Shown here piece after piece: positions 13,847 to 19,224 of a stretch of 28,646 nucleotides of DNA. Numbering within the stretch: the first letter of the stretch is position 1; the number at the start of each line of letters is the position of its first letter. The notes below the pieces were generated by a model. The model ran no database searches. It was not told where the DNA came from and was given only the letters and a program-made list of their open reading frames with translations. Both the position numbers and the translations under genes were made by a program. Source of the stretch: a virus. Location of the stretch: positions 1 to 28,646 of the IMG/VR virus record IMGVR_UViG_3300015262_000032. One strand, 5' to 3'.

Positions 13847-14020
13847 ATGCTAACGCTTGACCAGATCCAAGAAAAACTGAAGGGAAAGAACCTATCTAAA
13901 GCAGCGCGGGCGACAGACATTCACCCGTCAATGATGTGGCGCATAGCCAACGGACATGACAAGAACCCGCAATACAAGACTATTAAGAAGCTTTCCGACT
14001 ACGTTGAGGCGATGGAATGA
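13847..14020 (+). CDS. Small Cro-like HTH regulator (57 aa)
   Basis: The frame encodes one HTH domain (NLSKAARATDIHPSMMWRIA, residues ~15-34) with flanking helices, the usual build of minimal Cro/CI-type proteins. It is the first gene of the rightward operon and lies beside a divergent promoter region with dyads, so it probably binds there. It overlaps the helicase gene by ATGA. A poor Shine-Dalgarno suggests low expression. No larger CI-like repressor is visible in the window. Confidence 0.8.
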   Translation: MLTLDQIQEKLKGKNLSKAARATDIHPSMMWRIANGHDKNPQYKTIKKLSDYVEAME

Positions 14021-16372: not shown

Positions 16373-16579
16373 ATGCACTATGATTGCGATCATGTAGGGC
16401 ACCGCGTTTACGCGGTCAGGACTTTCTCAAATGGCTCCATTCATCACTGTGTTCAGTGCTTGAATTGCCTATCTGTTGTAAAAATGCAAGAGCACCAAAA
16501 TCGCCCTTGGATCAGGAAGGATGAAATACCTTCGGGTTTCGCCGTCCACACCTTTCTTGAGCCAGGGCAAAAACAATGA
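16373..16579 (+). CDS. Small Cys/His protein (68 aa)
   Basis: The protein has a CDH near the start and HHCVQCLNC in the middle, suggesting one small zinc site. A GAGGCA Shine-Dalgarno precedes the ATG. Its stop overlaps the primase-helicase start, so it is made with that protein. The function is not known. Confidence 0.65.
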   Translation: MHYDCDHVGHRVYAVRTFSNGSIHHCVQCLNCLSVVKMQEHQNRPWIRKDEIPSGFAVHTFLEPGQKQ

Positions 16580-18906
16580 CTCCTTCTATTAGCTGGTACG
16601 CATCCAACTACATCGACCGGTTTGGGATGAAGCTCGTCCCTGTCGAGCCGCTAAAGAAATTCCCGATGGCGAAGGACTGGGGGCATAACGTTTTGGGCGA
16701 GGCGATCACTGCCGAGCTGTTCTATGATCAAAACCCAACCTGGAACATGGGCGTTGCCCTCGGCCCGTCAAAACTGTGCAGTCTTGATATTGACTGCATG
16801 GACTCGTTCGCCATCATCTGTGAAACGTTTGGTATCGCTATCGATGAGCTGATTGCTGAGACGCCAACCATTCAGGGCAATCCGGCTAAGGGCTGCCGGC
16901 TGATGTTCCGTGTGCCTGCTGGCGTTTCGTTGCCTTACCAGAAACTGAACTGGAGACGTAACGACGGTACTGGCAAGAGCTACACGGTATTTGAACTGCG
17001 CAGCGCTACCGACGGCGAGCAGCGGCAAGATATCGTGCCTCCTTCTATTCACCCTGAAACCGGAAAGCCTTACCAATGGCTAACCAATCCACGTCAGGAC
17101 TGGCCGACGCCGCCTGCCTGGATGCTGGCAATGTGGGGTGACTGGGAGCGGTTCAAGCCTCAGCTAGTTGATATGTGCCCGTGGGCAGAAGAGAAGGTGC
17201 AGGCCGTACATCGTCCATCTCCTATCCAGCGCCAAGAAGGACAGGTGTCCGTCATTGACTCATACATTGATGCCAATGATCTGCAATCCGAGCTGTCTCG
17301 CTATGGCTATAAGAAGGTCGGTAAGCGTTACCTTTCACCGCACAGCACAACGGGGCTTCCTGGCGTTCTGATATTTCCGGAGGGGCGCTCGTGCTGGATT
17401 AACCATGCTTCAGACCCATTGTGTTCTGAGGACTCTGGCCGCCCGGTTAACGCCTTCGATCTGTTCTGCTATTACGAATGCAATGGCGATGCTAGCGCCG
17501 CCGTAAAGAAAGCCGCCGAACTTCTTGGTATGAAATCGGAGCCTATGGCAAAACGTCAGCAAGCGGTAGAGCGGTATGTTGAGGATGAGCCGGAAGAATT
17601 CAACGAGCAGGATTACGAGTTCGAGCCGCCTCGCCACCCTGATGATGAAGTCCAATCGCCGGCTATTCAGGATAAGCCGGTCGCTCGCTTCTCGCGAGCG
17701 GAATACAATCTGGCCGAGATCCTTCCGTTCTGTAACGACAAAGGCAAGCCGCTTAACCATATCGCCAACGTCGGTGAGATCTGCAAGCGTATTGGCGCAG
17801 TAATACGCTACAACGTAATCCGCAAGGAGGAGGAGATACTGATTCCGCATCACTCGTTCAGCATCGACAACGAAGCTAACGCTTCCTTCGCGTGGCTGAA
17901 GTCTGAGTGCTCTCTGTTCAACATGGGCACAGACAGTCTAGGCGAGTACATCACGTACCTAGCCGACAAAAATCTTTACAACCCAGTAGCTGAGTGGGTT
18001 GGATCGAAACCGTGGGATGGCGTAAGCCGGATGCAGGATTGGTGCAATACGGTAACTGGCGCTCAGGATTACATTCCGCGCAAGAAGTGGCTTAAGGAAA
18101 CACTGATGCGCCGATGGGCTATCTCTGCTGTTGCTGCTGCCCATTCGCCTGATGGCATATCGGCTGCCGGCGTTCTGACAATCCAGGGCGAGCAGTACCT
18201 TGGTAAAACGAAATGGTTCAAGCAGCTTGCACCCGAGGCGATGAACGTTGTTAAGGACGGCATGATCCTTCGTCCTGATGACAAGGACTCAGTGAAGCAG
18301 ATCTGTTCGTTCTGGCTTGTTGAGCTTGGAGAGCTCGATGCTACGTTTCGCAAGTCGGACATGGCTGCGCTTAAATCATTCTTGACGAACAAGACAGACG
18401 TTCTGCGTCGTGCCTATGCTCGCAGGGAATCTCAGTTTGCCCGTCGTACCGTGTTCTTTGCGTCCGTGAACCCGAAAGAGTTCCTGCATGACCCGACCGG
18501 CAACCGGCGATACTGGACGATTGAAGCGACAAAACTTGATCACTCGCACGATATTGACATGCAGCAATTTTGGGCAGAAGTGCTCCAGATGTGGAAAGGC
18601 GGAGAGGGGTTCTATCTGCTTCAGGATGAGATGACTGAGCTCAACGCGCACAACGAATCGTACACAGCTATCGACCCCGTAGAGGACCGGATCATGTCGG
18701 CACTGTCATGGGGTGATGAGCAGGTTGATTGGCGGTGGGCAACGGCTACCGATATTCTACGGGACGTTGGTTTCGACCGCCCTAATCAGTCTGAGGCTTC
18801 ACGAGCCGCTGCTTGCTTGAGGAAGCACAACGGGGGGCAGGGTCGACGAAGTAACGGCAGGGCTCTGCTGCTTGCGCCAAAGCGAATGCTAAGCGAATAC
18901 CCTTAA
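16576..18906 (+). CDS. Prim-pol / VapE-type primase-helicase
   Basis: The 776-residue protein has an N-terminal bifunctional primase/polymerase-like domain: KKFPMAKDWG, the DID pair at 71-73, and PPSIHPETGKPYQW with H159. A linker region contains a small Gly/Trp-rich domain (~225-320). The C-terminal VirE/VapE ATPase has Walker A (GEQYLGKT, 538-545), a Walker B-like FWLVELGEL (579-587) and FFASVNPKEF with TGNRRYW. It should prime DNA synthesis and load or act as the replicative helicase. The iteron-like region directly downstream fits a replication initiator. A terminator closes the operon. Confidence 0.88.
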   Translation: MTPSISWYASNYIDRFGMKLVPVEPLKKFPMAKDWGHNVLGEAITAELFYDQNPTWNMGVALGPSKLCSLDIDCMDSFAIICETFGIAIDELIAETPTIQGNPAKGCRLMFRVPAGVSLPYQKLNWRRNDGTGKSYTVFELRSATDGEQRQDIVPPSIHPETGKPYQWLTNPRQDWPTPPAWMLAMWGDWERFKPQLVDMCPWAEEKVQAVHRPSPIQRQEGQVSVIDSYIDANDLQSELSRYGYKKVGKRYLSPHSTTGLPGVLIFPEGRSCWINHASDPLCSEDSGRPVNAFDLFCYYECNGDASAAVKKAAELLGMKSEPMAKRQQAVERYVEDEPEEFNEQDYEFEPPRHPDDEVQSPAIQDKPVARFSRAEYNLAEILPFCNDKGKPLNHIANVGEICKRIGAVIRYNVIRKEEEILIPHHSFSIDNEANASFAWLKSECSLFNMGTDSLGEYITYLADKNLYNPVAEWVGSKPWDGVSRMQDWCNTVTGAQDYIPRKKWLKETLMRRWAISAVAAAHSPDGISAAGVLTIQGEQYLGKTKWFKQLAPEAMNVVKDGMILRPDDKDSVKQICSFWLVELGELDATFRKSDMAALKSFLTNKTDVLRRAYARRESQFARRTVFFASVNPKEFLHDPTGNRRYWTIEATKLDHSHDIDMQQFWAEVLQMWKGGEGFYLLQDEMTELNAHNESYTAIDPVEDRIMSALSWGDEQVDWRWATATDILRDVGFDRPNQSEASRAAACLRKHNGGQGRRSNGRALLLAPKRMLSEYP

Positions 18907-18913
18907 CACCATT

Positions 18914-18936
18914 GCCCGCAGATGCGGGCTTTTTTT
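18914..18936 (+). terminator. Intrinsic terminator of the replication operon
   Basis: A GCCCGC / GCGGGC stem with a 4-base loop is followed by seven T. It lies 8 bases after the primase-helicase stop. Confidence 0.92.
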
Positions 18937-18950
18937 CGTCTCCGGCTCAG

Positions 18951-19210
18951 TCAGTGTACCAGTGTGCTATAAGGGCACCTTTTAAAAACAAGGTGCACTG
19001 TCTCAAAGCCACGTGATCCGTGGCCTCTAGCCCTTTCAGTGTACCTAGTGTACTTATATCTATATAAGTAGTATAAAAGGGGTAATAGGGGTAATAGGGA
19101 GAAAATGGTATATATAGGGATTCCGTTACACTGGGTACACTGAAAACTCTGTAAGCCTTATAAACCGTGGCCTGGACACAGGGTGCCTGCTATTATCGAA
19201 GGTGCACTGA
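18951..19210. repeat. Iteron-like repeat region, candidate replication origin
   Basis: About 290 bases without a gene hold five copies of TCAGTGYACC. Two are direct, at 18951 and 19036. Three are inverted, at 18992 (ACAGTGCACC), 19134 and 19201. Three of them extend into a second AGTGT half. Between them lie a 9-bp-arm AT-rich palindrome (19051-19070), two tandem GGGGTAATA units (19079-19096), a GCCACG/CGTGGC dyad (19008-19024) and two copies of CCGTGGCCT (19018, 19165). This matches the build of an iteron origin: initiator sites, an AT-rich opening element and secondary dyads. A regulatory region for the small-gene belt is the alternative. Confidence 0.6.
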
Positions 19211-19224
19211 TAAGGAGAATAGAA

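Follow-up and report, generated by a model that had tools for sequence, protein, structure and literature searches.

A non-coding stretch crowded with short repeats (18937–19224) lies directly behind a primase-helicase gene in a viral DNA of 28,646 nt (IMG/VR record IMGVR_UViG_3300015262_000032; this whole stretch of DNA is called the window), raising the question of whether replication starts there and which protein reads the repeats. A preliminary description had suggested an origin recognised by the primase-helicase or by a host factor. The repeats, their inverted arrangement, the retention of the layout despite word divergence and the covariation of the word with the C-terminal winged helix were computed directly. 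The sequence 18951–19210 is, with high confidence, predicted to be a phage replication origin, with the Prim-Pol/VapE protein encoded upstream as its initiator. By analogy we infer an origin with a self-loading initiator of the SaPI/PICI type, laid out like the alpha-terminator-crr segment of P4.

Repeats and other elements of the region

The proposed initiator gene (16576–18906, +) is closed by an intrinsic terminator (18914–18936, +; a stem of six G-C pairs, a loop of four and a T7 tail), which was also present in a near-identical relative, L001. The stretch opens with the end of this terminator, and the repeats proper begin at 18951, 45 bp past the stop codon, i.e. immediately 3′ of the initiator gene, as in SaPI/PICI-type origins. 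The ATG of the next gene (19225) is directly downstream.

Four exact copies of TCAGTGYACC, two per strand, were located by word search at 18951(+), 19036(+), 19134(−) and 19201(−), and there was no other exact copy in the contig. Five copies in both orientations had been described; the fifth, ACAGTGCACC (18992–19001, −), contained one mismatch. On allowing one mismatch, five of the eight copies of the contig fell in the region. The shorter word AGTG[TC][AG]C occurred 10 times in the contig and seven times between 18953 and 19208 (256 bp), against ca. 0.1 predicted from the rate over the whole contig. The most repeated 7-mer of the region had four copies, and the maximum over 40 shuffles was also four, so that this count alone was only modestly unusual; the repeat evidence therefore draws its strength from the longer word and from the relatives.

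The second AGTGT halves at three copies, the AT palindrome with 9-bp arms, the tandem pair and the separate GC dyad of the preliminary description were all recovered. The first iteron, TCAGTGTACC (18951–18960, +), was followed by a half-site AGTGTGC (18961–18967, +), and the mismatched second iteron by the dyad GCCACG-N5-CGTGGC (19008–19024), which was imperfect in the alignment with L001. An inner left tandem pair (19036–19053, +) consisted of TCAGTGTACC (19036–19045) and AGTGTAC (19047–19053), and an inner right pair in inverted orientation (19126–19143, −) of the half-site CAGTGTAA (19126–19133) and TCAGTGTACC (19134–19143). These inner pairs converged on and enclosed a core of 69% AT, which started with the palindrome TACTTATAT-CT-ATATAAGTA (19051–19070, inverted repeat I6, 100%) and continued as a purine-rich segment (19075–19124, +) containing AAAAGGGGTAATAGGGGTAATAGGGAGAAAA and TATATATAGGGATTCC, with the GGGGTAATA tandem pair at 19079–19096. 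Judged from its sequence, core comparison and alignment, the purine-rich segment is likely the counterpart of a TATATGGAAA element of the relatives. An outer right iteron, TCAGTGCACC (19201–19210, −), completed the set, so that iterons lay on both sides of the core. Searches of the region for Rfam families and tRNA genes gave no match, and its DNA similarity to isolated phages was confined to a match in the coding part.

The proposed initiator protein

The 776-aa protein contained a Prim-Pol (AEP) domain (PF09250, residues 9–182) and a VapE helicase domain (PF05272, residues 479–697). The closest solved protein was PriRep1 (7pds; phmmer E 1.4e-19, Foldseek with the AF2 model E 1.9e-18), of which the chain is named “Similar to D. 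nodosus vapE” and the entry is entitled “The structure of PriRep1 with dsDNA”; the SaPI5 primase-helicase 7ola was also matched (2.4e-5, fold search). By the matches to 7pds, the helicase was related to SaPI Rep, the initiator of SaPI/PICI-type origins. The last 88 residues were modelled by AF2 with a pLDDT of 88 as helix-strand-helix-helix-strand-strand, a predicted winged helix. The proposed iteron reader is this winged helix (residues 698–767; 18667–18876, +), in which the third helix (738–752) would be the recognition helix and two strands (756–767) the wing. Compared alone with the PDB, the C-terminal model gave only weak winged-helix matches (E 0.3 or worse).

Conservation of the layout in VapE loci

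VapE loci were taken from IMG/VR, GTDB genomes and isolated phages, leaving out L014 and L113, in which the gene end was missing, and L137 (an APSE phage, a VapE relative with a toxin cassette in its stretch). Behind vapE, 51 of 101 non-redundant loci had a 7-mer whose copy number exceeded that in all 40 shuffles, and the mean best 7-mer count was 4.6 there versus 2.8 in controls 1.2 kb downstream and 2.5 inside vapE. Iteron blocks were found behind the VapE genes of the isolated phages IPLA35 (Staphylococcus), PH15 (Streptococcus), Dante (Paenibacillus) and PMP (Pasteurella). An iteron cluster immediately after the gene was absent in about half of the loci, among them Stenotrophomonas prophages and the phages FoX1, ep3, PPpW-3, Mica, Persinger, VP16C and ECO1230-10, and no clear block was seen in the stretches examined of Bacteroides ARB14, Leuconostoc LN34 and the satellite Javan45. 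Fourteen of the loci lacking a block directly behind the gene (L097–L105, L112, L121, L122, L124 and L125, i.e. Stenotrophomonas prophages, FoX1, ep3, PPpW-3 and Mica) had a different C-terminal tip.

A search for the same 10-mer beside VapE-type genes of related phages had been proposed. The word was kept exactly in the nearest relatives only; what recurred widely was the layout, with a different iteron in each lineage: GGTACACTG in the window and GGATGCACTG, GGTTGCACT, GGTGTCA, GGTGACA, GGTGGCACTG, AGGGACAC, GGGGTCA, TTGGTCAC, GTGAACAA, GGTAACC, AGGGTAT, GTGTGGAT and others elsewhere. After near-identical proteins were dropped, 41 loci with a scorable core remained. Iterons were oppositely oriented on the two sides of the core in 36 of them, as around the AT-rich core of the window, with a median start-to-start distance of 96 bp across the core, and tandem pairs stood on both sides in 23. 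Read along the purine-richer strand, the AT maximum of the core was at one end in 35 of the 41 loci, and TATATGGAAA was often near the opposite end (exact in 10 of 41, 0 in shuffles). In L027–L030 and L033–L035 the whole core (AT end, purine strand and TATATGGAAA) was reversed relative to vapE. In L002, whose VapE was 94% identical, the block was kept behind an inserted gene with partly degenerate words.

Covariation of the iteron word and the winged helix

If the protein reads the repeats, the word and the DNA-binding domain should change together. Among 44 dereplicated loci, iteron similarity was correlated with C-terminal-domain identity after control for helicase identity (partial Mantel r = 0.43, p = 0.0002), and controlling for the C-terminus left no correlation with helicase identity (r = −0.11). 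The correlation persisted at 80% dereplication (r 0.28, p 0.0003) and without the GGGACAC group (r 0.31, p 0.0003), and faded at low helicase identity (70% dereplication, r 0.15, p 0.05, n = 18). When successive protein segments were compared, only those reaching well into residues 670–767 gave a correlation (0.30 and 0.45; others ≤0.11). The top-ranked columns included 738, 746, 758, 759 and 763, so the signal fell on the recognition helix and wing of the AF2 model. At identity cuts as low as 70%, the word was predicted better by the nearest neighbour in C-terminus than by that in helicase (p 0.001–0.005); at a 60% cut the test was not significant. The pair L028 and L029, with helicases 86% and C-termini 51% identical, had the words GGTGACAT and GTGAACAA. 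These results indicated that the iteron word, as judged from the sequences compared, follows the C-terminal winged helix rather than the helicase.

Seven dereplicated loci with a [KR]RSNG wing, from which this class was defined post hoc, all had AGTG-type words (AGTGTA, AGTGCA, AGTGTAG or AGTGCC). Same-wing loci outside the defining set (L022, L068, L069, L070, L073 and Achromobacter phage Mano) all had AGTG[TC]A clusters. The wing class also led to displaced blocks: a cluster in L069, 2.7 kb downstream of vapE, with an AT-rich stretch, AAAGGGGAG and CTATATGGAAA, and an origin-like block of Mano (39.81–40.05 kb), 2.9 kb from the primase gene and between a terminator and the next gene. In the Mano record (L130), this intergenic stretch (39800–40060) has no annotated feature. 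A simpler rule, that an SNG wing means AGTGYA, was only partly true (Fisher p 0.008), as RK-, KK- and RM-SNG wings were paired with other words; the R preceding SNG seems to matter for the word, a refinement made after seeing the data.

Proposed mode of initiation and alternative explanations

In the proposed mechanism, the C-terminal winged helix of the Prim-Pol/VapE protein would bind the AGTGYACC iterons, and two helicase rings would be positioned face to face by the inner tandem pairs, which are inverted about the core. Once the AT palindrome and purine-rich core had melted, the VapE AAA+ rings would load, and the fused AEP primase would make the first primers for bidirectional replication.

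Recognition of an origin by the primase-helicase, one of the two original suggestions, is the reading best supported by the comparisons. It is suggested by dense iterons in the non-coding DNA that directly follows the initiator gene and terminator; by the same layout with lineage-specific words behind many VapE genes; by a word that covaries with the C-terminal domain given the helicase and not the reverse, with the signal at recognition helix and wing; by PriRep1 with DNA as the closest fold; by the finding of displaced blocks through the wing class; and by the gene-terminator-crr order of P4 and the SaPI and PICI precedents (PMC7581432, PMC6092414). Against it stand the loci (about half) without a cluster, the degenerate words of L002, the fading of the covariation and a GC skew that does not turn here. 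The cumulative skew over the contig, which had been proposed as a check, reached its minimum at ca. 13.5–14 kb and made no turn at the repeats; as this minimum sits at a switch of gene direction, the skew does not locate the origin.

It is unlikely that the repeats are instead operators, bound by the initiator or a small repressor, for the downstream early operon or for autoregulation of the initiator. The region is just upstream of the next gene, and some relatives encode stand-alone winged-helix proteins near the block, whose binding could also regulate transcription. However, a scan of the region for sigma-70-like promoters found none, the block was retained where other genes part it from vapE (L002, L022, L031, L069 and Mano), and symmetric inverted pairs about a meltable core are origin-like, the SaPI, PICI and P4 precedents being origins.

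An origin of the pRN1 type, in which a large stem-loop is recognised by its structure and the repeats are merely its stem, is quite improbable. Stem-loop origins have been proposed for AEP-helicase-winged-helix initiators (PMC4234260), and 19033–19146 could fold into a stem of ca. 19 bp with a long loop (z −4.3). However, this stem is built from the inverted iterons, there are more copies beyond it, and tracking of the recognition helix and wing by the relatives' word points to reading of sequence; a pRN1-type locus would have the large stem-loop and no iterons.

Reading by DnaA, IHF or another host protein, the second original suggestion, is barely credible. Host proteins may assist at such origins, but the word varies by lineage and tracks the wing of the phage protein, and AGTGYA-type words occurred together with the [KR]RSNG wing across an Acinetobacter phage (L123), the Achromobacter phage Mano and metagenomic contigs. 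That the repeats are functionless chance or low-complexity sequence has a negligible probability and is already contradicted comparatively: the best 7-mer count was matched by one of 40 shuffles, but seven of the 10 AGTG[TC][AG]C words of the contig lay within 256 bp and the layout recurred in relatives.

Comparison with known replication loci

An origin predicted to be read by the C-terminus of the Prim-Pol/VapE protein closely resembles the pri-rep-ori replicons of SaPIs and PICIs, in which the origin is directly 3′ of the initiator gene and two iteron sets flank an AT-rich region (PMC6092414). The initiator helicase is of the same family (7pds, PriRep1). In SaPIs, the iterons lying behind the rep gene are recognised by the C-terminal domain of Rep (PMC7581432), a mode of recognition predicted here from sequence. 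A PICI pri-ori supports a plasmid, and this layout was called unique to PICIs (PMC6092414). In contrast, the window is from an ordinary phage with tail and lysis genes, its AEP primase and VapE helicase are fused in one protein, and its iteron words differ.

The window shares with P4 alpha/crr the order of gene, terminator and iterons in both orientations, and P4 alpha is likewise, from the literature, a primase-helicase-winged-helix protein with a C-terminal origin-binding domain. However, the P4 primase is of the TOPRIM type (PMC4234260), unlike the Prim-Pol (AEP) PF09250 of the window, the type 1 iterons of crr are GTGAACA versus AGTGYAC, and a second iteron site (ori) is present at another place in the P4 genome. 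GTGAAC-type words did occur in the relatives L029 and L110. ORF904 of the archaeal plasmid pRN1 also combines AEP primase, helicase and C-terminal winged helix, with an essential region behind the gene after a terminator (PMC4234260); it is reported without iterons and needs a stem-loop of ca. 100 nt, whereas iterons are evident in the window, and their inverted pairs could fold into a stem of this kind. At the putative origin of SCCmec Cch2, the C-terminal domain of the helicase binds in vitro to short repeats that closely follow its gene (PMC7581432), but there are only three iterons, a D5-type helicase and an A-family polymerase primase, and the element is not a phage.

This kind of origin is already known; the evidence adds a co-varying code and places a PICI-like layout, once called unique to these satellites, in ordinary phages whose initiator is an AEP-VapE protein. 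A search of non-subscription literature found no report of iterons behind the VapE genes of phages. For a large and mostly unstudied phage group, the origin becomes recognisable from sequence, and a testable recognition code (initiator wing versus iteron word) would predict which phages and satellites share or block origins.

Stand-alone winged-helix genes

An HMM search detected, in seven relatives, small genes near the block whose C-terminus was a stand-alone copy of the initiator winged helix (L002, 8364–8768, −; L022, 4432–4854, −; L031, 6270–6563, −; L069, 7499–7855, +; L086, 5259–5618, +; L063, 6553–6852, +; L068, 2966–3241, +); the window itself yielded none. The stand-alone wing mostly resembled that of the initiator of its own phage (own-pair identity sum 38 versus 27.7 permuted, p 0.012; hand-aligned, n = 7). 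In P4, the heterodimer partner among the winged-helix proteins is Cnr. By analogy, the stand-alone winged helix is possibly a Cnr-like copy-number brake, a natural guess because origin binding in P4 is under the control of homo- and heterodimer formation among winged-helix proteins (title of Yeo et al. 2002, as cited in PMC4234260).

More tentatively, and with somewhat less than even confidence, VapE phages of Gram-negative and Gram-positive hosts might have a single origin module in common, with a recognition code that changes fast; helix/wing and iteron word would change jointly, so that one architecture carries many replication specificities incompatible with one another. The stand-alone winged helix would then be a Cnr-like brake or an incompatibility factor, and the pRN1-type stem-loop may be the same arrangement of inverted sites seen as a fold.

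Phage context of the locus

Other genes of the window code for tail, virion structural, endolysin, spanin, SSB and exonuclease VIII-like proteins. Because of its own tail, virion structural and lysis genes, the element is a genuine phage with an AEP-VapE initiator and not a PICI, although the predicted origin is PICI-like. Relatives of the replication protein included complete phages such as Mano, with genes for terminase, portal, capsid, tail and integrase; a search for the TerL family PF03354 in the records of five relatives gave no match. Gene direction in the window switches at 13920–13956, between a leftward SSB/exonuclease arm and a rightward helicase/primase arm, and this segment is probably a divergent promoter region. 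Between the tail genes and in the opposite direction, a 216-aa ORF (1282–1932, −), for which a Pfam search gave no match, contained by eye zinc-finger-like CxxC and HxxPL motifs typical of HNH homing endonucleases.
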